This document shows, piece by piece, positions 3,745 to 38,864 of a stretch of 64,000 nucleotides of DNA (positions within the stretch are counted from its first letter, which is position 1; each line of letters opens with the position of its first letter). The stretch spans positions 434,001 to 498,000 of the IMG/VR virus record IMGVR_UViG_3300046517_002304. One strand, written 5' to 3'. The notes under the pieces were generated by a model. It ran no database searches and was not told the origin of the DNA. It worked only from the letters and a program-made list of their open reading frames with translations. This stretch comes from a virus. A program made the position numbers and the translations under genes.

Positions 3745-4959
3745 TCAAGCAACTTTTTTAGGCATACAGTGCAATTTTGCACTACCGCAAACAGATTCCT
3801 TGGTAACTACATAATCCATCGGCAAAATGTCAACCATTGTATCCAACAATAAGTTTTCAATAATAGTTTTTAGCGCTCTTGCTCCAGTTTTTTCTGCATG
3901 CGCTTTTTCGGCGATAGCTATAAGCGATTCTTCTGTAAAGTCTAAGCTGGCACCAGATAGCTTAAATATCGCGTCATACTGCTTGCAAAGAGAATTCTTG
4001 GTATCTCGCAAAATACTCACAAGAGCAGAAACGTCTAAGCTGGATAAAACCGTTTTCACTGGAAGTCTACCGACAAACTCTGGAATAAGACCATATTCAA
4101 TTAAGTCTTCATTAATAACGTCGGCTAATATATGTTCATTAAATCCATCGCTACCAAAACCGATTCGTTTTCTATTAGTTCTTTTAGCAACAATCTTATC
4201 AAGGTGAGTAAAAGCGCCGCCACAGATAAAAAGAATATTTGTAGTATCAACTGGAATATATGCTTGCTCAGGATGCTTTCTGCCACCTGCCGGAGGCACA
4301 TTAGCAATAGTGCCTTCCAGCATCTTTAGTAAAGACTGTTGAACTCCTTCTCCAGAAACATCCCTCGTAATTGAAACATTACTACTAGTTTTACTAATTT
4401 TATCTATTTCATCAATAAAGATAATTCCTCTTTGTGCCACTTCTACATTAAAGCTGCAATTATGCAACAATTTAAGAATTAAATTTTCAACGTCCTCTCC
4501 GACATACCCTGCTTGCGTCAGCGTAGTAGCATCGCCAATCGCCAACGGCACCGACAATATTTTTGCTAAGTTCTTAACTAAGGCTGTCTTACCGACGCCG
4601 CTGGGTCCGATCATTAAAACATTTGATTTTTCAATCTCTACATCTGTAGATGTAGAGAAAATTCTTTTATAGTGATTACTAACAGCAACCGATAAAACTT
4701 TTTTAGCATGACTCTGGCCGATGATATAATCGTCTAGTCTTTTAATAATCTCTAATGGTGATGGAATACTTTCCATCGTTTCCTGATTTAGATTTACTAT
4801 TGAGTTTTCTTTAAATATCCTTGTGCAATCTGATACGCAATCCAAACAAATATGGGTGCTTTCATCTTGCCCATGTACTAACTGCTTTGTCGCATTACCA
4901 ACTCCACAGAATGAACATTTTTTGCTGGGCATTTTTCGTCTTCGTGTGCTTTTCGCCAT
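3745..4959 (-). CDS. clpX: ATP-dependent Clp protease ATP-binding subunit ClpX
   Basis: A 404-residue full-length ClpX. The N-terminal zinc-binding domain has Cys15, Cys18, Cys38 and Cys41 (CSFC and CLDC). Walker A is GPSGVGKT near residue 118. The pore-loop segment GYVGEDVEN follows, and Walker B is FIDEIDK near residue 185. The sensor region and the C-terminal segment with the ClpP-docking area are present (FVGRLPV, then EKTGARALK). ClpX unfolds substrates and feeds them to ClpP. No clpP gene is visible in the window, so it would pair with host ClpP or act alone as an unfoldase. Phage-encoded ClpX is uncommon and suggests redirected host proteolysis. Confidence 0.97.
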
Positions 4960-4970
4960 TTGATAATCTT

Positions 4971-5297
4971 CTAAAAATAAAAAGAATAAAGAAATAATTC
5001 ATACAAACAAACTGCCGACAACAAAACGTTGGCTGTTGGAATAAGCCAAGCGCGGCCAAAAGAAATAATCCAACTTGGCCTGTGCTTTGAATAAAGCACA
5101 TAAACGCTAATGCCGACTACAAACATTGTAAGCAAAAACTTGAAGAAACACAACCCCAAAAACCCAAATTTTACCAGAAAAAACTCAGCAAATACGTTCA
5201 ATTCGTAAAAATTGTTAGGGCAATCAACCACTAGTAGTTTAGTTAGATATAAATCAATACAACTGAGAAAGATAAACAAAACATAATTTCGTATCAT
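4971..5297 (-). CDS. Integral membrane protein, DUF5658-like
   Basis: A 108-residue protein with about three hydrophobic segments: 1-25, 35-67 and 85-108. A short pattern in the first half, (L/I)xxxDLYxT then ELN then FxxxK, resembles DUF5658 membrane proteins, whose function is unknown. It is Phe- and Leu-rich with few charges. The start overlaps the preceding saccharopine-dehydrogenase-like stop as ATGA. It would sit in the host inner membrane. It could in principle be a lysis or exclusion protein, but nothing shows this. Confidence 0.75.
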
Positions 5298-6415
5298 TGC
5301 ATCAATTTAGTGTTCATTCCTCCAATTTTATCTAAATTATCAAAAAATAGCTTCATGGGAATATCACCACATCCCAAAACAGCTTTCTTACTTGAGAGAC
5401 TCTTATTGGCTATCAGGCTTGTGACTGATGCTGCCGTAAAGCCAGTTGTTTTCTGCATAGCAGTAAAAATGTCATCGTGCTCAACGCAAACACGACGAAC
5501 CCAATGTCCATTTTTATTCACGATACTTGCGCTAATTAAAACTTTATCTTTTCTCGTCTTCGGGCATGCGTTTTTAACCGCTCTACGAAACGTATCTTCA
5601 TCCATTTTACAATCGCCCAACAAAAATTTAATCAGCTTACAATGGCCACCATATCTTATTGTTTTATAATCACACTCTTTAACCCCGCGAGTCATTAGAG
5701 ATGGCAACAAGCCACCGACTCCACCTTTAGTATTAAATGCCTCAAGATATTCTACGGTACAAAAATTTTTAGTGCTTACGTCACATAAAAATTCTATTTG
5801 TTCTATATCCTCTAACGCTGTAACCTTGGTAATTTTTGAATCTTTAATCGCATCGCATTGACCGACATATTCATTATAAAGACCATCCAAACTAAAGACT
5901 TGATTATACTGCAATAAATTGTTCGGATTAATCGGCAATCCGCCTACTCTTAACTTTATTACCGCATTACTTAAGTCTGATACAGTTTGTATACCATTTT
6001 CTAATATTAAACCAACTAATCCAGGTGCCAATCCCAATGAAACAAAGCAAGATTGCTCGCTGTTATAAAATCCACCTTCATTAAAATAACCCTCAATCTC
6101 CTGGTCTACCACTGGATTGCCGCCTAAATCTGTATAGCTACGTTTTAATTCAATACAATTTTTAGCAATATCCTGATTAGCCCAATATGGCGCAGCCGAT
6201 ATTACCGTAGCATCTTTGACCTCAGATAAATCTTCTAAATCTTCAGCAACCCCATCAATACCAATTTGGTTGCAATCAAAGAATGCAATGGCGTCTAGCA
6301 AAGAGCTACTATTAGGTTCTACCATATAAATAGGGTGATTCAATTTAGACAAGCCATAAACAATGGCCCGACCCATTTCACCACCAGCACCGACCACAAT
6401 AACGGGTTTATTCAT
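5294..6415 (-). CDS. Saccharopine dehydrogenase-like NAD(P)-dependent oxidoreductase
   Basis: A 373-residue protein. The Rossmann start is VIVVGAGGEMGRAIVYGL (GxGGxxG, residues 5-22), with an acidic residue at the end of strand 2 (VEP) favouring NAD. The family signatures S-Y-T-D-L-G-G-N (near 92-99) and L-G-L-A-P-G-L-V (near 127-134) match saccharopine dehydrogenase and related carboxynorspermidine-type enzymes. These reduce or cleave amino-acid adducts of lysine or polyamines. The specific substrate cannot be told. It is the first gene of its transcription unit, with a sigma70-like promoter at 6449-6476 and an AGGGA ribosome site before the ATG. Confidence 0.85.
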   Translation of the reverse strand: MNKPVIVVGAGGEMGRAIVYGLSKLNHPIYMVEPNSSSLLDAIAFFDCNQIGIDGVAEDLEDLSEVKDATVISAAPYWANQDIAKNCIELKRSYTDLGGNPVVDQEIEGYFNEGGFYNSEQSCFVSLGLAPGLVGLILENGIQTVSDLSNAVIKLRVGGLPINPNNLLQYNQVFSLDGLYNEYVGQCDAIKDSKITKVTALEDIEQIEFLCDVSTKNFCTVEYLEAFNTKGGVGGLLPSLMTRGVKECDYKTIRYGGHCKLIKFLLGDCKMDEDTFRRAVKNACPKTRKDKVLISASIVNKNGHWVRRVCVEHDDIFTAMQKTTGFTAASVTSLIANKSLSSKKAVLGCGDIPMKLFFDNLDKIGGMNTKLMQ

Positions 6416-6528: not shown

Positions 6529-7014
6529 CTAGGCCGCTTTGTAGAGCTTCTTGCGACCTTCACCGCTCGGAACCGAGACGATTTCCTTGTTCGTGCGCAG
6601 CTTGTGAATGAGCTGGCCGAGAACGGGGGCAAAACTGTCAGACTTCGACTTGTAGCCAGCAGCCGCGACCTTATCACAAGCATCCTCAAGGGTCAGGCCC
6701 TTCGGATTCTTGGCGAGCACCTTCTTGAAGACAACTTCAAGGGTCGGCTTGCCGTTGCGTTCAGGACGGCTTCCGGCGCGACCAGTCGCGGTCTTCTTAC
6801 TTGTGCGAGCCACCTTGGTGGTCGCGCCGTTCAGTGCTTCAACAGCCGCAATGGCAGTCTCAAGCAACTGCTGTCGCTTCGTGAGCGAAGCCGATTCAGC
6901 GACAAGCTGACTCAACGACAAGAGGCCCTTGGGACTCTTGGCAGGCTTGCTGACCTTCTTGGCGGGGGTTTTGACAACCTTCTTGACGGACTTCTTCGCG
7001 GTCTTCTTAGCCAT
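6529..7014 (-). CDS. Histone H1-like / lysine-rich DNA-binding protein, GC-rich
   Basis: A 161-residue protein. The first 45 residues are Lys/Ala/Pro-rich repeats (AKKTAKK, KTPAKK, KPAKSPKG) like bacterial H1-type nucleoproteins. The last 65 residues (from TLEVVFKKVLAKNPKG to KKLYKAA) look like a small helical, winged-helix-type domain. The ATG at 7014 has AGGAAAC 7-13 bases upstream and begins MAKKTAKK. Its composition differs sharply from all neighbours: codons mostly end in G or C. This points to recent transfer, probably from a GC-rich host. It probably coats or compacts DNA in the phage or host nucleoid. It has its own promoter (7130-7159) and terminator (6480-6509). Confidence 0.85.
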   Translation of the reverse strand: MAKKTAKKSVKKVVKTPAKKVSKPAKSPKGLLSLSQLVAESASLTKRQQLLETAIAAVEALNGATTKVARTSKKTATGRAGSRPERNGKPTLEVVFKKVLAKNPKGLTLEDACDKVAAAGYKSKSDSFAPVLGQLIHKLRTNKEIVSVPSGEGRKKLYKAA

Positions 7015-7129
7015 GGTTCTGTGTTTCCTGTTAAGTCCCTGTCCACTCTTAGGAAAGGCATAGAGTAAGTAAAAAAGCTGGGACATGCTTTTTCTTTTTC
7101 TCTATCCTACTTGCTGCGTCTCTGTCTTA

Positions 7130-7207: not shown

Positions 7208-7234
7208 TATCTTGTGTACAAATCATACAAGATA
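7208..7234 (+). repeat. Inverted repeat covering the tnpB start codon
   Basis: Perfect 8-bp arms TATCTTGT (7208-7215) and ACAAGATA (7227-7234) are separated by 11 bases. The GTG start codon at 7214 lies in the left arm and loop. It could be the left-end hairpin of the element, or it could mask the start codon. Confidence 0.55.
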
Positions 7235-8386
7235 GAGCTAGCCCCAAACAACAAGCAAAAGACACGATTCTATCAATGTGCCGGTACAGCTAGATTCATA
7301 TTTAACTGGGGATTATTTAAGATTTCATCCGCTTACAGCAAAGATAAAACAAAAATAACGACATTTGAATTAAGTAATCAACTAACTCAACTCAAAAAAA
7401 CAAAAGAATATATTTGGTTAAAAGAAATTTCTTCTTGGGTACCGATTTATGCCTTGCAAAATCTTAATTCGGCATTCAAAAATTTTTTCCGAAATTGCAA
7501 GCAAAATAAAAAGGGCAAAAAAGGCTTCCCTAAGTTTAAACAAAAAGGCAAAGCCTTAAATAACTTTACCGTGAGCGATGTGTTCTACGGCCCAAAACAC
7601 GTTAAGCTACCAAGGATAGGTAAAATACGACTCAAGGAACATGGTTACATTCCAGCTAACTCTAAAGTCGTCAATGCAACAATAACTGAACATGCGGGAC
7701 GATGGTTCATATCAATGCTAATAAATGAACCAGAGCCAAATTTTCAAGGTGCCAAAGACAAATACTCGCAAGTAGGCGTTGATCTAGGAATTAAAACACT
7801 TGCTGTAATTAGTGACGGACAAGAATTTCAGAGTCCTAAGCCACTTAAAAAGCACACTAAAAAACTCAAAAAACTACAACGAAAACACGCTAGATGTAAA
7901 GGAGTCAAAAACAGAGAAAAAGCAAGAAAAAAACTGGCAAAATGCCATTATCGCGTAACATGTATTCGCAAGGATACATTGCATAAAATTACTACACACT
8001 TAACGAAAACCAAGTCAAGAATAGTAATTGAAGATTTAAACGTTTCGGGAATGATGAAAAATCATAAGTTGTCAAGAGCAATCTCAGATTTAGGCTTCTA
8101 TGAATTTCGCAGACAGCTTGAGTATAAAGGAAGATGGTATAATTGTGAAATTATACTGGCCGATAGATTTTTTCCATCTAGTAAAACTTGTCCGTGTTGC
8201 AACGATATTTATAAGGACTTAACACTTGATCAAAGAGAATGGAATTGTGCCAACTGTAATACCCTGAACCTAAGAGATTCAGCCGCAGCAAAAAACCTAG
8301 AAGTCTATCCTGAAAAACACGCACACAAATATAATAAACAAAGTACCGTGAGTTCCACGGAAGCTGACAAAGTGTCTACGACTTAG
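7214..8386 (+). CDS. tnpB: TnpB, IS200/IS605-type RNA-guided nuclease
   Basis: A 390-residue protein starting at a GTG. The N-terminal OrfB helix-turn-helix part contains TARFIFNWGL. The RuvC-like nuclease follows with Asp190 in VGVDLGIKT, Glu273 in IVIEDLNVSGM and Asp355 in RDSAAAKNL, so all three catalytic acids are present. The zinc ribbon between them is CPCC...CANC, slightly different from the usual CxxCG pairs. No TnpA transposase is adjacent, so this is a solo element. It lies between the histone-like and csrA genes, transcribed opposite to both. The encoded RNA is expected to overlap the 3' end, where hairpins are seen. It looks intact. Confidence 0.93.
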   Translation: MYKSYKIELAPNNKQKTRFYQCAGTARFIFNWGLFKISSAYSKDKTKITTFELSNQLTQLKKTKEYIWLKEISSWVPIYALQNLNSAFKNFFRNCKQNKKGKKGFPKFKQKGKALNNFTVSDVFYGPKHVKLPRIGKIRLKEHGYIPANSKVVNATITEHAGRWFISMLINEPEPNFQGAKDKYSQVGVDLGIKTLAVISDGQEFQSPKPLKKHTKKLKKLQRKHARCKGVKNREKARKKLAKCHYRVTCIRKDTLHKITTHLTKTKSRIVIEDLNVSGMMKNHKLSRAISDLGFYEFRRQLEYKGRWYNCEIILADRFFPSSKTCPCCNDIYKDLTLDQREWNCANCNTLNLRDSAAAKNLEVYPEKHAHKYNKQSTVSSTEADKVSTT

Positions 8387-8443: not shown

Positions 8444-8821
8444 TTAAGCAGGTAAAGTACCGTCACTCTTAAGGAGCGATAATTTTTGCAAAACTTCTTT
8501 TCGCATGATTTTGACGCTTGTCGGAGCATCAATCCCAATTCGCGTTGAATCCCGAGAAACTCTGACACATGTAATGCCAACATCTATATCAGCACCACCA
8601 TCATCAAGCTTTAGCTGTACGCTATCTTTAGGATTCAGCGTAAATTCATGCCATCCACCTTCTGATATTTCGAAATCAGGGAAGATAACTTGAGGGTGAG
8701 CGCTAATACCCAAATGAGCTTGGCCATTCCTAGCGGAAAAACAAATCAACGTAACGTCCGCAATATTAGCGCCTGTAGACAACTTGATCTCTTCTCCGGC
8801 TTTCCTCGTCAAAACCAACAT
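8444..8821 (-). CDS. CsrA-family RNA-binding regulator, tandem (single-chain) form
   Basis: A 125-residue protein, twice the usual CsrA length (about 60). It starts with the perfect CsrA signature MLVLTRKAGEEI. A first CsrA-like unit runs to about residue 52 (ADVTLI, then AHLGISAHPQVIF). A second starts near 66 (SVQLKLDD, then VGITCVRVS, then TRIGIDAPTSVKIMRKEVL). In CsrA each RNA site is built from strand 1 of one chain (Leu4, Arg6) and strand 5 of the other (Arg44). Here copy 1 keeps the strand-1 residues and copy 2 keeps the Arg of the last strand (Arg107), while copy 1 lacks it. One chain could therefore form one site. It probably represses or stabilises host or phage mRNAs. It is downstream of parB in the same direction, with AAGGAAAGGG before the ATG. 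Confidence 0.85.
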   Translation of the reverse strand: MLVLTRKAGEEIKLSTGANIADVTLICFSARNGQAHLGISAHPQVIFPDFEISEGGWHEFTLNPKDSVQLKLDDGGADIDVGITCVRVSRDSTRIGIDAPTSVKIMRKEVLQKLSLLKSDGTLPA

Positions 8822-8844: not shown

Positions 8845-9987
8845 TTATCGGAATTTTTTGTCGGCAACTGACGGAATCGCTTCATGGTCTTCTAAGTCAG
8901 ATTCTCTCAGAACAAGCTGAAGAAGGCTAAGCATAACAAAATAGTCGCGCTTCAAAGTCTTTTGTTTCACACCCTTAATTTTCGTTTCAAGGTCAGAACG
9001 AATATCTCTGATCTGCTTGGTGGAAAGAGGACGACCCTTTCCAGTTCTTGCGCCAAGTGTTTCATTTACTTCACCGATTACATCTGCCGTAATCGTCTTG
9101 TTGCCACTGGCCTTATTTAACGCCGCCATTCTCTCTTTGGCAGTGCTTAAGTCTGACGATGTGCTTTTCAGAACCTCCGTAGACTTCTTGAGGATACCGC
9201 TTGCCTCTGCTTTTCGGGAAAGCGGAGCACGTTTAACCATCACCTCTGCTACTTCAACATCAGTTTGAGCCTGCTCAACCTTTTCCTTCAGAGTCTCCAC
9301 TTGATCTATGGCGCTTTGAAGCCTGTTGGCATAATCCTTCTCCACCAAATTTCGAGCAAAGTCTATTACTGATTTAATCTTAGAAGAATTTGTCTTCAAC
9401 AACTGCAAGGCAGAACTACGGTTAATTATTCCAGAATTAAGAGCCTCCAATGCATACCTCGGTAAATTACCGATGCTGATTGTTTGAGAAACCCAACTGG
9501 GCGATGTGTCAAATATTCCAGCGATCTGGTCCCGAGTAAATGCCTTTTCGCCTTTTTCATTTGTCTCATTATCCAATCGCATACAAGCTTCAATACGTTC
9601 TATCTCTGTTAAGTCTACTCTCTCCAAATTATCGGAGTAAGCAATTCCAAGTGCGGTCATATCATCGCACTCAAAACACTTAACGTCTACGTTCGCAAAA
9701 ACCTCTTTCGCGGGCAACTTCTTCTGATGCTGCTGAGAATAACACGACTCTCCATCTTCTAGAAGCTTATAAATAGATCGTAAGCGACGTTCCCCACCAA
9801 GAAGCAGGTATTCGTTGTTTAATTTTCTAACGATGAGAGGATAAAGCAACCCTTGTGCGCAAATACTAGTTCTTAACGACTTCATCCTTTCGCTATTAAA
9901 AACAGTTCTCGCATTCTGCAAACTACCTCTATTAATAATCTTGATTTCGCCAACCGACAACTTCAGATGTTTAACGCTGCTTTCCAT
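8845..9987 (-). CDS. parB: ParB/Spo0J-family DNA-binding CTPase-like protein
   Basis: A 380-residue protein. The N-terminal ParB domain has LLLGGERRLRS near residues 61-71, matching the GERRxR nucleotide-binding motif, and DNLERVDLTEIE near 117-128, matching the NxxRxDLxPxE box. The helix-turn-helix (FTRDQIAGIFDTSPSWVSQTI) follows near residues 152-172. The C-terminal half, about 210-330, is a charged coiled-coil. No ParA gene is adjacent, so it may act in gene regulation or DNA organisation rather than segregation. The unit has an AAAGGAAC ribosome site. Confidence 0.9.
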   Translation of the reverse strand: MESSVKHLKLSVGEIKIINRGSLQNARTVFNSERMKSLRTSICAQGLLYPLIVRKLNNEYLLLGGERRLRSIYKLLEDGESCYSQQHQKKLPAKEVFANVDVKCFECDDMTALGIAYSDNLERVDLTEIERIEACMRLDNETNEKGEKAFTRDQIAGIFDTSPSWVSQTISIGNLPRYALEALNSGIINRSSALQLLKTNSSKIKSVIDFARNLVEKDYANRLQSAIDQVETLKEKVEQAQTDVEVAEVMVKRAPLSRKAEASGILKKSTEVLKSTSSDLSTAKERMAALNKASGNKTITADVIGEVNETLGARTGKGRPLSTKQIRDIRSDLETKIKGVKQKTLKRDYFVMLSLLQLVLRESDLEDHEAIPSVADKKFR

Positions 9988-14610: not shown

Positions 14611-16113
14611 TCAAATAATGTCACTCTTTTTATAATATTTCTTATACATGCTAACCAAGTCATTTTTAATCTGGCCTTCGGGAATATCCGACCAAGATAA
14701 GCTGCACATATCTACAACAGAATTACACTTGGTATTCTTATAATAATTTAAACTATTCTTCCCTATCAGCTTAATAAAGCTTACTACGTTGTTTTCTACA
14801 CAAAACCTAATATACGGCTTTTCTTCTTTTACGGACTCTATCATCTGATTCCAATGCACATAATAATATGCTGCACGAAGCAATGGGTCAGAAATATCCC
14901 GTAATTCAGGCAGATATTTTAAAATGTATTTTTCGTAATCACTCTCAAAATCCTTAAAGTACCCGATACCATTCACAAAAGAATTAATCACATTTATCGG
15001 ATGCCTCACTAAATGCACTACTCTTGCTTCACCGAGAAATTCATCACGCAAATATGGCGCTGCCATATAACTAGCTTCGGCATCTAATGGAATAGTAGGA
15101 TCTTTAATCTGCTTTATACCAGCCCATTCTGATGATCCGCTGTTATATCCATAATTTTTATAAGTGCATCCTTTATTAATGAATATTCTTTCATGACCAC
15201 AAGAAACGCCAACACTATTAAGCAAGCCGGTAAAATATGCAGTTCCGCTCCTGCCAGTTCCGCATACAATGTACTGTAGCTTCTTATCTGGAGGATTAAT
15301 TTCAACGCCTTCAATCACCTTATCCGACCAAGACAAATACTTCTCTCTCATCTTCTTGTATTTAATTCTCACTGAACAATCAGAAATAACCTTAAGCGGA
15401 TGAACAACAGATGCATTGGTCGCAAGGTCTGTTATTTCAATGTTCGGACGAAACCTCATTAGGTATCTTGTGTTAGACCAAACATCCTTCCGCCATGCAC
15501 CAATCTCAAATACGTTTCCGCCAAAATGCTTAACAAGAGTGGGGTAAAGAGTTTCCTCAAAAGCATATCCTCTATAATCTGGAAATTTACCTTTCTCAAA
15601 TGTAGATGTAGCTTCCAAAAATCTATTAAAAAAATTAGTGTCAATTAACTTTTTAATAAACTTTCCAGAATAAAAAACACAACACCCAAGCATCGTAGAG
15701 TATTTCTCTATTTTTTCACCTATAATTTTATCTAATACCGGCAAGTCTCCACTATGATGCCTAATATCACAAGCCAGACAAGATATGCCGGTCTTATTTT
15801 TTAAATCATCTAAAAAACTACTAGAAGTAAAAAGACAATCATATTCAACATAAATGTACCAATCATAATCTGGAAATAATTCGTATATCTTCTGAAGTCC
15901 AAAAGAAACACTACGATAAGGAGATTTATGAAAATTATGAAAAAGACCCCTAATAACCTTTGTATTACCCCAGTGTATGAAGGAAAACTTATTCCATCCA
16001 GCATCATCTATCATTATAGCAACATCGTCCGAAACCCATGTCCGAATAGACTCTAGTGTATCCAAAACAAGGTTGGGATAATCATGACAATTTAATAATA
16101 CGGCAATTTTCAT
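14611..16113 (-). CDS. Fusion of a glycosyltransferase-like domain and a sulfotransferase
   Basis: A 500-residue protein with two domains. Residues 1 to about 240 resemble a GT-A glycosyltransferase: MKIAVLLNCHDYP, then WYIYVEYDCLF near residue 90 as the D-x-D-like motif. Residues 280-480 are a PAPS-dependent sulfotransferase: YIVCGTGRSGTAYF is the 5'-phosphosulfate-binding loop and VVHLVRHPINVINSF near 361-375 is the 3'-phosphate-binding segment. Such a protein could add and sulfate a sugar. The arrangement in one chain is unusual. It lies between the methyltransferase gene and the small protein, in the same direction. Confidence 0.85.
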   Translation of the reverse strand: MKIAVLLNCHDYPNLVLDTLESIRTWVSDDVAIMIDDAGWNKFSFIHWGNTKVIRGLFHNFHKSPYRSVSFGLQKIYELFPDYDWYIYVEYDCLFTSSSFLDDLKNKTGISCLACDIRHHSGDLPVLDKIIGEKIEKYSTMLGCCVFYSGKFIKKLIDTNFFNRFLEATSTFEKGKFPDYRGYAFEETLYPTLVKHFGGNVFEIGAWRKDVWSNTRYLMRFRPNIEITDLATNASVVHPLKVISDCSVRIKYKKMREKYLSWSDKVIEGVEINPPDKKLQYIVCGTGRSGTAYFTGLLNSVGVSCGHERIFINKGCTYKNYGYNSGSSEWAGIKQIKDPTIPLDAEASYMAAPYLRDEFLGEARVVHLVRHPINVINSFVNGIGYFKDFESDYEKYILKYLPELRDISDPLLRAAYYYVHWNQMIESVKEEKPYIRFCVENNVVSFIKLIGKNSLNYYKNTKCNSVVDMCSLSWSDIPEGQIKNDLVSMYKKYYKKSDII

Positions 16114-17010
16114 TTAATGCCTTAAAACAAACTCGCAAAACCTTTGCTCTATCTGAAATATCGGCAATCTGCGGCCAGAGCTTAAGTCGTCATCTGGGGA
16201 TAATAACCACCTTTGCTTAATTCTATTGGCAATAATAGGGGTTTGAAAAAATGGCTCTACGTGGTCTTTCACTATCTTTTCATTCACTCTCCGCAACCCA
16301 GCCATATCAAACATTTTATAATATTCACCAAGAGGATGTATGATTTTTCTGGTATAAGTAAGCTTATATCCCATTTTTTCTATTTCATCGTCAGTAAAAA
16401 CAAGATGAATATACGCCTTATTAATTTGTTGATACAAATGAGAGCCATGCTTAGAGCACCACGGATGACATACTACGTAAATCTTACCAGAATCGGCTAA
16501 GATAGATTTAATGCTTTGCATCATACTATACGGCGAAAGAGAGTGATCTATAACATCATATAAAAAAATAACATCATACTTGCGACTTGATATACTTTGG
16601 AAATCACCGGTCAAAAACAAATTATCATTTTTAGCCCGCTTATCCCATCCAGAAGAAGAAATATCATATCCATAAGACGCCTTAACTCCCCAGTCTAGCG
16701 CTCTTTCACAAATATGCGCCTCTCCGCACCCGAAGTCAAGGAATACCTTATCTTTTAATTCGATAGATGCCTCGGCCAAAATAGCATCGGCTCTACTAAA
16801 TTTATCATCTTCGGAATTAGAGTCACATATAAAAGACGGATCAACCGCTGCTGGCCAAGCATCACTATGGAGCATTTTTACAAGACTTTGATATTCAATT
16901 TCTCGTAAAAACGAAGATATGTCGCTTATTTTTATATTGTCATCCAGTATTATGTCTGGATCTAAGGACGACAGCAACGGCCAAGTGTTATTAAGTTCTG
17001 ATATTCTCAC
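16114..17010 (-). CDS. SAM-dependent methyltransferase
   Basis: A 298-residue protein. Motif I is VFLDFGCGEAHICERAL, near residues 93-109. The motif II acidic end is YDIS near 120, and YDVIFLYDVIDHS near 145-157 is the post-II segment typical of class I methyltransferases. No acceptor-specific domain is seen; in this context a sugar or lipid-linked glycan is likely. The start is GTG at 17010, with no ribosome site but a TAAATA octamer ending 4 bases before it. Followed immediately by the glycosyltransferase-sulfotransferase fusion. Confidence 0.85.
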   Translation of the reverse strand: MRISELNNTWPLLSSLDPDIILDDNIKISDISSFLREIEYQSLVKMLHSDAWPAAVDPSFICDSNSEDDKFSRADAILAEASIELKDKVFLDFGCGEAHICERALDWGVKASYGYDISSSGWDKRAKNDNLFLTGDFQSISSRKYDVIFLYDVIDHSLSPYSMMQSIKSILADSGKIYVVCHPWCSKHGSHLYQQINKAYIHLVFTDDEIEKMGYKLTYTRKIIHPLGEYYKMFDMAGLRRVNEKIVKDHVEPFFQTPIIANRIKQRWLLSPDDDLSSGRRLPIFQIEQRFCEFVLRH

Positions 17011-24029: not shown

Positions 24030-25073
24030 TTAAATTAAATCTCCAAGAGTCTTTTTTGCCTCGTCAATTAATGACAAATTAGTTGAGTACTTCAAAATTC
24101 TTCTTAGAAACCATATCTTCGTAGCCCGAAGATGTTTACTTAGTATATAAAACTGATCACTTCCTTGCAACCCCAATATTTCAAGGGTTTTAGTCAAATT
24201 TGCCGGAGACACATCTAATTTGTCTGCCACCTCCTTGTATTCAGGCGCATACTTTTTAAATCGCTCCATAGATGCCGCTAATAATTCTGTATCATCATAA
24301 TCATAGCCATATTTCGTAATGTCCGGTCTCTTTTTCTCATTATTCTTAACCTCTGCCCGCTTAGAAATTGCAACAAAGTTAATAAACAAACGAATCCAGT
24401 GCTTTACCGTATAATGGTTAAGCGTACTCTCTGGCAAACGCAATTCTACAGTCCTAATATCACCACCCTGAACGTAATTGCAGAAATTCAACGAAACCCT
24501 TCTATCATGTTCGGCGGCTGTGTGTGTCCCCAATCTACTTTGTAATTCTGTGCTTGATAAGTAATCTAGTTTGCCAAGTTTAATTTTTTTACGCATTGAC
24601 ACACAATATATGTTTTCTCTGCGATGTTCAGGAACTGCCTCATAAACTATCGGCTCAATCCTCAGCCAATTAGCCAAAAGTTGCGTTGCCATTTTAAATG
24701 AATAATCACGAATATCTGCATGAATATGAAGTCCACAATTTTTATTAACCTGAGCGCCAGCTACTCTCAAGGCATTTACAGCGCGACCCACTGCACATAA
24801 GTCTTTATACCCGCTGGCGACAAATGACGCGACTTCAAAACCACCAGTATCTTTTTTATATCCTAAATCTCCACAAGTAGAGTCTGTCTTAACATGCCAA
24901 TAACTGTTATTTCTTGTGTGGCCCCATCCACTAACCACAACCTCACGAACAGGATCAGTCTTTTTGATCGCGTTCTTAATGATTGCTTGGCTAATAGCAG
25001 AGTTCATTTCAATTTCAACGCCAAAATGTTTTTTTGACGTAAAACCGACATAACGAATTTTGGGAGTGGTCAT
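24030..25073 (-). CDS. Amidoligase-like (COOH-NH2 ligase) protein
   Basis: A 347-residue protein. The signature KHFGVEIEMN (residues 15-24) matches the F-G-x-E-x-E start of Amidoligase_2. The segment WHVKTDSTCGDLG near 59-71 matches the W-x-x-x-D-x-S step. KNCGLHIHADIRDY near 115-128 matches C-G-x-H-x-H. These belong to the carboxylate-amine ligase fold related to glutamine synthetase, which joins amino groups to carboxyls on peptides or cell-wall precursors. The substrate is unknown. The family is common in phages and prophages. Promoter at 25098-25125. Confidence 0.8.
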   Translation of the reverse strand: MTTPKIRYVGFTSKKHFGVEIEMNSAISQAIIKNAIKKTDPVREVVVSGWGHTRNNSYWHVKTDSTCGDLGYKKDTGGFEVASFVASGYKDLCAVGRAVNALRVAGAQVNKNCGLHIHADIRDYSFKMATQLLANWLRIEPIVYEAVPEHRRENIYCVSMRKKIKLGKLDYLSSTELQSRLGTHTAAEHDRRVSLNFCNYVQGGDIRTVELRLPESTLNHYTVKHWIRLFINFVAISKRAEVKNNEKKRPDITKYGYDYDDTELLAASMERFKKYAPEYKEVADKLDVSPANLTKTLEILGLQGSDQFYILSKHLRATKIWFLRRILKYSTNLSLIDEAKKTLGDLI

Positions 25074-33509: not shown

Positions 33510-33726
33510 GAAATTTTTTCCAAGCATCTTGTCCGGGTCCGTATGGAGAACGATACCCGTCAGACATATGATGAGAGACTCCCTTAATTAATCCATCATG
33601 ATTAGAGAGCTTGTCTGCCAACTTAGCAACAACAAAATCAGACAAAGAAAACTGTGAAAAGCGAACGCAATATAGGATTACGGATAGAACTAAGATAACG
33701 GCTATTTTTTTAATCATACTTTTCAT
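33493..33726 (-). CDS. Small membrane-anchored protein
   Basis: A 77-residue protein. One N-terminal membrane segment (IKKIAVILVLSVILYCVRF) is followed by a short polar tail with SPYGPGQDAW near its end. The start overlaps the dnaJ stop as ATGA. Function unknown. Confidence 0.65.
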   Translation of the reverse strand: MKSMIKKIAVILVLSVILYCVRFSQFSLSDFVVAKLADKLSNHDGLIKGVSHHMSDGYRSPYGPGQDAWKKFLSEKK

Positions 33727-34784
33727 GCTCCAATAGTAAATTCAGTAACACTTTCTCTGAATATATCTATTGTTTTGCACGATAAGTTATTATTCTGCGT
33801 TAAGAAATCCTTGTAATTATCATTTATCTCATCTGGCAAGCATAATTTAACCCTTACGATGAATTGGCCTGCATTACAATCACATATCACAAACTCTTTT
33901 CCATGCGAAGTAAAAGCAGGAATAGCCAAATTATGTAATTTTCCGTTAATATGAGGAACGTCTATGCTGCCGCCCAACACAGCCAAATGATATGAAATCG
34001 GCAAATCGCAAATAACATTTTGTTCTTCTCTATAAAAAAGCGGATGATTGGCAACATTAATAGTACAATATATGTCTCCATACTGACCATACGACCAACA
34101 GTTGCCAGCTCCAGCTAAGACAAACTGAGAATGATTATTGGTTCCAGCCGGTATTTTAACCTGGAAAGTTTCAGTATTAGATTTCAGGCAACTTCCCGAA
34201 CATGACTGACATTTCTCTTTAATTGTTCTTCTCGCGCCGCCACAAGCCGCGCAGGATGTAGATACTACAAACGGGCCTTGCCTGGTAGTAGACGAACCAG
34301 TGCCATTACAAACAATACATGTATTAAATGAATTTCCTAAATGGGAACCATTCCCCTTACAATCTTGACAAGCATTATGTCTGTTGACTATGATATGCTT
34401 ATCACAACCAAAAGTAGCTTCCAAAAAACTAATTTCCATATCATATGCGATATGGGGATCTACATTATAAGTTTGTTGGCGATGATTATGGTTAAAGAAT
34501 CCATTAAAGAATCCTCCAGCCATATCTGCGCCGAATGGATTACCGTATCCAGAAACACCATCTCTCTTATCCACGCGGCCATACATATCAAACTGACGCT
34601 TAGATTCAGCATCGCCTAATATGTCATATGCTTCACTCACATCCTTGAAATTATCGGAAGCACCGGTATCCTTATTGGAGTCGGGATGATATTTTTTAGC
34701 AAGCTTTTTATAAGCTTTTTTTATTTCGTCTGCCGATGCGTTCGGATCAACATCTAATACTTCATAAGGATTTAAATTAGGCAT
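33723..34784 (-). CDS. dnaJ: Chaperone DnaJ (Hsp40)
   Basis: A 353-residue protein. The J domain has the HPD motif in AKKYHPDSNKD (near 32-38), a Gly/Phe region follows, then a cysteine-rich zinc domain with four C-x-x-C units (CQDCKGNGS, CIVCNGTGS, CAACGGAR, CQSCSGSC), then the C-terminal substrate domain. All parts of a full type-I DnaJ are present. It would stimulate host DnaK and help in phage assembly or replication. No dnaK is seen. It overlaps the 77-residue membrane gene by 4 bases. Confidence 0.95.
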   Translation of the reverse strand: MPNLNPYEVLDVDPNASADEIKKAYKKLAKKYHPDSNKDTGASDNFKDVSEAYDILGDAESKRQFDMYGRVDKRDGVSGYGNPFGADMAGGFFNGFFNHNHRQQTYNVDPHIAYDMEISFLEATFGCDKHIIVNRHNACQDCKGNGSHLGNSFNTCIVCNGTGSSTTRQGPFVVSTSCAACGGARRTIKEKCQSCSGSCLKSNTETFQVKIPAGTNNHSQFVLAGAGNCWSYGQYGDIYCTINVANHPLFYREEQNVICDLPISYHLAVLGGSIDVPHINGKLHNLAIPAFTSHGKEFVICDCNAGQFIVRVKLCLPDEINDNYKDFLTQNNNLSCKTIDIFRESVTEFTIGA

Positions 34785-37241: not shown

Positions 37242-38864
37242 TTAAATAATTTTTTGCAACTTAGATGTCATACGCTCTAGTGTAGCAGAACGATCTTTTT
37301 TGTCAAGAACAACATTGATAATATACAAATCTTTACTCAATAAAGCTTCAGAGAAGGCAGAGTCTAATTCTGTTTCGGTGTTAACAAGCCGCCCGACACC
37401 ACGACCAATAATCTGAGGCAACAAGTGGTACTGCCAATTAGGAATATCGTTAAAACTACCGTCAATCAAAAATCGCTCTACCGTATAGCCGCCGTTATTC
37501 AGCACAACAATAATAGGATTTAGCTTATTGCTAGCTATCGTTGATATTTCCATTCCAGTCATCTGAAATGCTCCATCGCCAACCAATACAATCGGTCTAA
37601 CATCCGGTTTAGCAATCTGAACACCCAGGGCAGCAGGAATAGAGAATCCCATGGATGTATAAAATGCCTGTGATAAAAAGTTGTTACTGTGATGAACAAC
37701 TAGCTCATTAGAGCCGAATAAGCTGTCGCCTATGTCTGCAATTATTGCCATATTCTTGTCTAAAACAGCATTAATTTTTTCAAATAATCTCTTGACCGTA
37801 ATTTTCTCATTCTTAGGAGAAAAAACTGCTCTTGTCTTCATTTCGCCAACAATCGGAATTCGATCAGAAGAAATATTAGACTTAATTAACCCATTAACAA
37901 AATCTTGGAAAAGAACATTTTCATAGTAATGATTTCGCACTCCCATTTTTTCAGTAGTGCAAAATATCGTTCTATCTTTACGAAGAACAGATGGCTTAAA
38001 TCCAAAGTTAATGTCAGTAATCATCACGCCCAACATAATTAAGCAATCTGATTCCTCAACCTTTTGCTTAACTTCTGGGCTACTAGCATCCCCACAATAA
38101 ACACCTATAGATATCGGATGATTTTCATTTGTCAAACTCTTACTCAACATAGTTGTAGCAATGGGAATATTATACTTTCTAGCAAACTTGGTAATGACTT
38201 CGCCCATACCAAATCTAGCTAATTCAATGCCCGCCAAAATTACAGGGTTTTTACTTGAGTTGATCCAATTAATAGATTCCTGCAAAGCTTCCGCTAAATT
38301 TATCTTATCACTCTCTGTAGCTTTAGGAGAGCCGACCGTAAATGCATCATAGCTAATAGTTGTGTCCACCATATCTCTGGGGACTTCAATATAAACAGGT
38401 TGCTTATGCTGCTTCATGGCCAGAAGCACCCGATCAATTTCATAAGCCGCCATTACCGGATTATCTAATACACAAGAAGCGCAGGTCACATGTTTAAAAA
38501 TCTCAAACTGAGTATCATAAGAACCAACAGCATGATGCAGCGTCATTCCGCCGGCTCTCTCCTTTTTCCCGGGAGAACCGCTAATAACAACAACCGGAGA
38601 TTTTTCTGCGAAAGCGCCCCCGATAGAATTTAATAGTTTAAACCCACCGACGCAATAAGTGGTGCATACACAGCCAATACCGTTAACTCTGGCATATGCG
38701 TCAGCGGCGAACCCAGCGCACTGTTCGTCAGTAGTGCCGATTACAGGAAGAGATTTAGAAAACTGATTATACAAATTAAGAACGAAATCGCCAGGAACTC
38801 CAAAAATATGCTTTACACCACACTCTTTAAGACGAGAAATCAAAAATTGTGCAACTGTTGGCAT
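37242..38864 (-). CDS. ThDP-dependent 2-oxoacid decarboxylase (indolepyruvate/pyruvate decarboxylase family)
   Basis: A 540-residue protein of full family length. The pyrimidine-binding half starts VAQFLISRLKECGVKHIFGV and contains TDEQCAGFAADAYARVNG with the conserved Glu. The H-H pair is in TLHHAVG. The pyrophosphate motif GDG starts VGDGAFQMTGMEISTIAS, then NNGGYTVERF near residues 461-470, keeping the catalytic Glu of the N-x-G-Y-T-x-E motif. It decarboxylates an aromatic or branched 2-oxo acid. Its presence near an indoleamine dioxygenase suggests aromatic amino-acid chemistry, but the substrate cannot be fixed. Ribosome site AGGAGAGAG. Confidence 0.92.
   Translation of the reverse strand: MPTVAQFLISRLKECGVKHIFGVPGDFVLNLYNQFSKSLPVIGTTDEQCAGFAADAYARVNGIGCVCTTYCVGGFKLLNSIGGAFAEKSPVVVISGSPGKKERAGGMTLHHAVGSYDTQFEIFKHVTCASCVLDNPVMAAYEIDRVLLAMKQHKQPVYIEVPRDMVDTTISYDAFTVGSPKATESDKINLAEALQESINWINSSKNPVILAGIELARFGMGEVITKFARKYNIPIATTMLSKSLTNENHPISIGVYCGDASSPEVKQKVEESDCLIMLGVMITDINFGFKPSVLRKDRTIFCTTEKMGVRNHYYENVLFQDFVNGLIKSNISSDRIPIVGEMKTRAVFSPKNEKITVKRLFEKINAVLDKNMAIIADIGDSLFGSNELVVHHSNNFLSQAFYTSMGFSIPAALGVQIAKPDVRPIVLVGDGAFQMTGMEISTIASNKLNPIIVVLNNGGYTVERFLIDGSFNDIPNWQYHLLPQIIGRGVGRLVNTETELDSAFSEALLSKDLYIINVVLDKKDRSATLERMTSKLQKII

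Follow-up and report, generated by a model that had tools for sequence, protein, structure and literature searches.

A natural tandem CsrA in a megaphage genome: a single chain of two CsrA units and no more than one complete canonical RNA-binding site

CsrA proteins and their one-site derivatives

Members of the CsrA/RsmA/RsmE family, such as E. coli CsrA and P. protegens RsmE, are homodimers of ~60-amino-acid chains with two identical RNA-binding sites. Strands beta1 and beta5 of opposing protomers build each site, with L4 and R44 as critical residues (PMC7652899), so that the cross-protomer architecture assumed in the preliminary description of the present gene is established. Both surfaces of the dimer are required for full repression of glgC, while one site suffices for hfq (PMC7652899). 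The requirement at glgC was shown with a CsrA dimer in which one subunit carries R44A (Mercante 2009, as recounted in PMC7652899). A layout with two units in one chain has also been engineered: Re-CsrA is composed of a helix-deleted CsrA, the linker GGGGSGGGGS and a full CsrA, and is a stable protein (PMC5864733) designed to leave one CesT-binding site.

Natural variations are known as well. RsmN/RsmF of Pseudomonas aeruginosa has a rearranged CsrA fold with altered site sharing; it is a single unit with an inserted helix and still a two-site homodimer (PMC3791407). CsrA is found in phages, in 30 of 2517 phage genomes according to an earlier survey (PMC7366521), and the phage genes inspected in families phrog_9500 and phrog_5527 (e.g. 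that of phage F116) code one unit each. Phrog_5527, whose length of 123 amino acids made it a candidate tandem family, was rejected as such: the phage F116 protein is one unit with an unrelated tail.

The gene described here, found in a very large phage genome, codes a 125-amino-acid chain whose two units belong to the CsrA family by sequence and predicted fold, and in which the positions of L4, R6, R44 and E46 can be identified. Unlike the members of the family, it appears to combine one chain with one complete site. It has the layout of Re-CsrA, with a helix-less first unit, a short linker (~9 residues versus 10) and a full second unit. Re-CsrA is artificial and its first unit keeps R44; in the phage chain this position is Asp, and the R6 position of unit 2 is Pro. 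The likeness to the one-R44A dimer, in the account of PMC7652899, would be one functional RNA surface per dimer; that dimer was an artificial two-chain mixture, while the phage would manage with one natural gene. The two-unit layout and the one-site dimer were already engineered, whereas no described natural tandem was found in the open-access literature.

The carrier phage and the neighbourhood of the gene

The window, i.e. the whole stretch of DNA analysed, comprises 64,000 nucleotides (positions 434,001 to 498,000 of IMG/VR record IMGVR_UViG_3300046517_002304). The record has 511,233 bp and codes a large terminase and a DnaE-like polymerase. The carrier of the tandem csrA is a phage, and one of the huge or mega-phage class, with packaging and replication genes in more than 500 kb. 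In the phage collection the nearest relative of the terminase (43% identity) belongs to the 595-kb uncultured phage LR756511.1, likewise the source of the nearest relative of the polymerase. Two other records, IMGVR_UViG_3300047312_000527 and IMGVR_UViG_3300046792_000449, code DnaE-like and terminase proteins 100% identical to those of the carrier. As they come under two other sample numbers, the phage recurs. The csrA locus lies outside both fragments, and no second assembly of it was found.

The features of the locus are the following (window coordinates):

3745..4959, minus strand: ClpX-like gene, one edge of the conserved gene block
6529..7086, minus strand: conserved gene on the side away from parB, coding a basic histone-H1/AT-hook-like protein
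7214..8386, plus strand: IS200/IS605-type TnpB element, inserted beside the 3' end of the tandem csrA, with the H1-like gene on its other side
8444..8821, minus strand: tandem csrA gene (125 amino acids), an ORF with ATG start and two stretches matching Pfam CsrA (PF02599)
8660..8821, minus strand: CsrA unit 1, residues 1-54, with L4 and R6, D49 for R44 and no C-terminal helix
8648..8674, minus strand: linker, residues 50-58 (FEISEGGWH), standing where the helix of unit 1 would be, as placed by alignment and predicted strand ends
8447..8647, minus strand: CsrA unit 2, residues 59-125, with P64 for R6, R107 (equivalent to R44), E109 and helix 108-120
8845..9987, minus strand: ParB-like gene (Pfam ParB_N, 6.5e-10), directly upstream of the tandem csrA with a gap of 23 nt
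16114..17010, minus strand: methyltransferase-like gene that served to find relatives and bounds the conserved block on the opposite side

The order ClpX, H1-like, CsrA, ParB, g14611, methyltransferase is common to the window and LR756511.1. Orthologues of the ParB-like gene stand beside CsrA genes in LR756511.1 and other phages, and the H1-like protein has weak matches at the same position in LR756511.1 and in the related records G302 and G310. The TnpB element, with NCBIfam TnpB matches around 1e-89, was not found at this position in the mapped related phages. A search of the window with Rfam gave no match, hence no known CsrB-type sponge RNA lies within it.

The window also codes an indoleamine 2,3-dioxygenase family protein, unexpected in a phage (40245-41411, minus strand; Pfam IDO, 9e-71), with a thiamine-pyrophosphate enzyme gene nearby (37242-38864). 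Amidoligase-like (24030-25073), DnaJ-like (33723-34784) and saccharopine dehydrogenase-like (5294-6415) genes are found in the same stretch, all on the minus strand. The families of the methyltransferase-like gene and of g14611 (14611-16113) are multi-copy in related phages, several copies, often in alternating orientation, being present in loci L168-L173 of G308, G318 and G328.

Two CsrA units in one chain

The presence of two CsrA units in one chain is confirmed. The 125-residue protein matches PF02599 in two separate stretches (8.2e-19; 67.8 bits against a cut-off of 27). In a profile search of the 511,233-bp record, in which the tandem is the only CsrA gene, the CsrA matches cover residues 80-113 (9.8e-11) and residues 1-45 (9.3e-7), each half on its own being above the family cut-off. 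Alignments to E. coli CsrA have z-scores of 11 for unit 1 and 10 for unit 2, and none of 2000 shuffled sequences scored equally well; the two units align to each other without gaps (z = 7 against shuffles). The initial observation of a protein of about twice CsrA length with two CsrA-like units therefore stands. One open reading frame thus holds both units, in departure from the family norm of a homodimer of ~60-residue chains, and the score to the NCBIfam csrA equivalog TIGR00202 (52.6 bits) is below the cut-off of 70.1, which places the protein outside the equivalog.

The start codon is preceded directly by the purine-rich, Shine-Dalgarno-like sequence AAGGAAAGGG; the folding of the leader gives no clear signal (z = -1.7). 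That two ordinary genes were joined by a frameshift or by misassembly was considered and rejected because unit 2 has no relic start and the site losses of both units, described below, occur in none of 52 reference single units.

RNA-contact residues

The reference set comprised 52 single-unit CsrAs of phages and bacteria, in which L4, R6, A36, R44 and E46 are 100% conserved. Unit 1 keeps L4 and R6, while D49 occupies the R44 position. Its flanking positions have drifted further, with F47 for V42 and P48 for H43. In unit 2, L62 corresponds to L4, R107 to R44 and E109 to E46, while P64 stands at the position of R6. Of the two site arginines that are invariant in the reference set, each unit therefore lacks one. 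The core residues G33, A36 and E46 are present in both. The residues of unit 1 agree with the first reading, which had described a strand-1 signature without the strand-5 Arg. For unit 2 that reading was right about the Arg and too broad about strand 1: R6 is replaced but the leucine is retained.

The set L4, R6 and R44 is complete in neither unit, and units 1 and 2 jointly supply one set. There is good support for no more than one complete canonical site in the chain; the reading of one site per chain is thereby upheld in this form, by residue alignment and the predicted fold. If two of the four half-sites were lost at random, one complete site would remain in 2 of 6 cases, so that with a 1-in-3 chance of complementary decay the pattern of losses on its own is suggestive, is no proof and is statistically not strong.

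Predicted structure

When given an alignment, AlphaFold2 predicts a pair of CsrA units with a helix in the second only (pLDDT 87.5, pTM 0.75). The alignment was built from CsrA fragments of the collected loci, which biases the model towards CsrA; on the single sequence, without alignment, the model is uninformative, at pLDDT 41. Unit 1 is predicted to have strands at residues 2-7, 11-16, 22-31 and 34-42, a short beta5 and no helix, and unit 2 strands at 57-62, 67-73, 78-88, 92-98 and 103-107 with a helix at 108-120. In this model the second half, whose CsrA nature had been the point to check by structure prediction, has the five strands and C-terminal helix of the family. A Foldseek search with the model found no PDB match below 0.001; the best CsrA-family fold matches were RsmN/RsmF, with E values of about 0.1-0.24.

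The known geometry of the CsrA dimer (PMC7652899) suggests that beta1 of unit 1 lies beside beta5 of unit 2. With beta1 and beta5 pairing across protomers, the strands joined by the linker, beta5 of unit 1 and beta1 of unit 2, would be those of the decayed site.

When compared to BFVD, the model superposes over most of its two units, near full-length and at 15-24% identity, with four phage proteins of 81-114 amino acids (A0A6J5RUQ1, A0A6J7WXS8, A0A6G5YEX0 and A0A2I7QSD7). These structural matches may represent further single-chain CsrA-like proteins. A weaker match, ORF38 of Acinetobacter phage Loki, features neither CsrA motifs nor a match to the family.

Searches for other tandems

No other tandem was found in the following collections and genomes. 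Phage, viral-contig and genome-contig collections have no close relative of the protein, and the plasmid collection gave weak half-length matches only. With the tandem protein as query no second tandem was detected in 35 related records, nor was one present in 12 other viral contigs. Scans of the collections with CsrA profiles found single units only. The P0001 search, which covered 399 genomes of Pseudomonadota and 392 of Planctomycetota, revealed no tandem, and PF02599 in 294 Planctomycetota gave no adjacent same-frame pairs among the matches listed. No close homologue for a selection test on the fused gene was found.

In the open-access literature no described natural tandem CsrA was found, and the words 'tandem' and 'fusion' are absent from a survey of Pseudomonas and phage CsrAs published in 2020 (PMC7366521). 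The remark that a single chain with one site is unfamiliar among described CsrA proteins holds for the natural proteins of that literature, but engineered equivalents exist.

Paired csrA genes of related megaphages and the origin of the tandem

LR756511.1 codes, in its 193-205 kb region, a CsrA that is a single 60-residue unit. Further related IMG/VR records were found through the methyltransferase and the terminase, and CsrA was searched in 35 of them. It is present in 16, of which 13 have two or three copies; several of these records are near-copies, which reduces them to about nine independent cases. All their CsrAs are separate single units with L4, R6 and R44 intact. Type A is canonical and has the helix, while type B is shorter and has a longer beta2-beta3 loop. 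Genes of the two types flank parB in G302 (62-92 kb region), G318, G308 and G310. Two distinct csrA genes, in several records placed around parB within the ClpX/H1-like/ParB/methyltransferase block, are a habit of this megaphage clade that is apparently undescribed. This lineage shares the genomic block of the tandem and is its likely source, but its csrA genes are separate and each has the full set of site residues. The tandem takes the place of type B, directly downstream of parB and on its strand; the type-A slot is empty.

Most likely the tandem arose when a single csrA of this phage lineage was duplicated internally. The longer beta2-beta3 loop is shared, with equal length, by both units and, together with their gapless alignment, this makes internal duplication the simplest origin. 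The duplicate within the chain would render a separate second csrA copy unnecessary. Fusion of the parB-flanking paralogues, type B followed by type A, is a possible but less likely alternative that would make the chain a covalent version of a natural CsrA heterodimer. It would accord with the two paralogues present per genome in most relatives, with the slots that the tandem fills and leaves empty, with the lack of a helix in unit 1, a feature largely shared by type B, and with the mixed dimers possible for plasmid and host Rsm proteins (PMC9928087). The type-A profile, however, outscores the type-B profile on both units (24.8 versus 17.3 and 37.7 versus 27.1 bits), the loop has identical length in the two, and a tree places neither unit, its end branches having about 9-10 changes per column. 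The fusion concerns the origin only and is compatible with the mechanism proposed below.

Proposed mechanism and alternatives

The phage probably codes a CsrA pseudo-dimer made of a single chain, in which one RNA-binding surface is functional. Everything in this proposal beyond two CsrA units in one chain is interpretation. Units 1 and 2 would fold on each other like the protomers of a CsrA dimer; beta1 of unit 1 (L4, R6) and beta5 of unit 2 (R107) would form one site for GGA-containing RNA, and the second site, at the linker joining beta5 of unit 1 to beta1 of unit 2, would have decayed. Such a protein might bind ANGGA elements singly, would not bridge two mRNA sites and would form no mixed dimers with host CsrA. 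During infection it could repress translation in monovalent fashion, or compete, for instance with host CsrA, by covering GGA/Shine-Dalgarno sites of host or phage mRNA. Given the difference between the two-site target glgC and the one-site target hfq, repression or protection by a monovalent protein would be confined to single-site targets, without bridging. Potential targets exist, as 13 of the window's 53 start codons have ANGGA upstream (2.9 +/- 1.7 in random 20-mers), an enrichment that mainly reflects general Shine-Dalgarno sequences.

The intramolecular pairing of this pseudo-dimer has to be weighed against pairing between chains. CsrA protomers are intrinsically domain-swapped (PMC7652899) and the ~9-residue linker could permit exchange, so that unit 1 of one tandem chain might pair with unit 2 of another. 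This arrangement seems rather improbable, and with it the two intact sites per two-chain complex, wider apart than in normal CsrA, that it would create: the engineered tandem with a 10-residue linker is one recombinant dimer unit (PMC5864733), and the helix loss of unit 1 and the decay on the linker side fit pairing within the chain. Slightly more improbable still is a lost or vestigial RNA site, with the protein serving protein contacts only (e.g. to titrate a CsrA partner) or its gene decaying beside a transposon. Of the four site arginines expected from the invariant positions, two are indeed missing, and the TnpB element directly adjoins the 3' end of the gene, but the reading frame is intact with its Shine-Dalgarno-like leader, the remaining L4, R6, R107 and E109 amount to exactly one complete site, and core residues G33, A36 and E46 are kept in both units.

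The single-chain pseudo-dimer can be extended to a wider, tentative proposal, whose probability falls short of that of the pseudo-dimer itself. The protein might be a natural, obligately monovalent CsrA, for which megaphage evolution fused two units and did away with one site and with the helix of the first unit. It would bind single GGA elements, escape bridging and the sponge logic of the CsrB/RsmZ type, and outcompete or evade the host Csr system during infection.

Whether CsrA has to be a dimer with two sites is a question of long standing, so far probed only with engineered mixed dimers. If the proposal is true, a one-chain, one-site CsrA would be evolution's version of the mixed-dimer experiment and a ready tool, with simple GGA blocking separable from bridging and from sponge titration. 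In the clade at large, the csrA pair flanking parB suggests that post-transcriptional takeover through Csr belongs to the biology of these megaphages.
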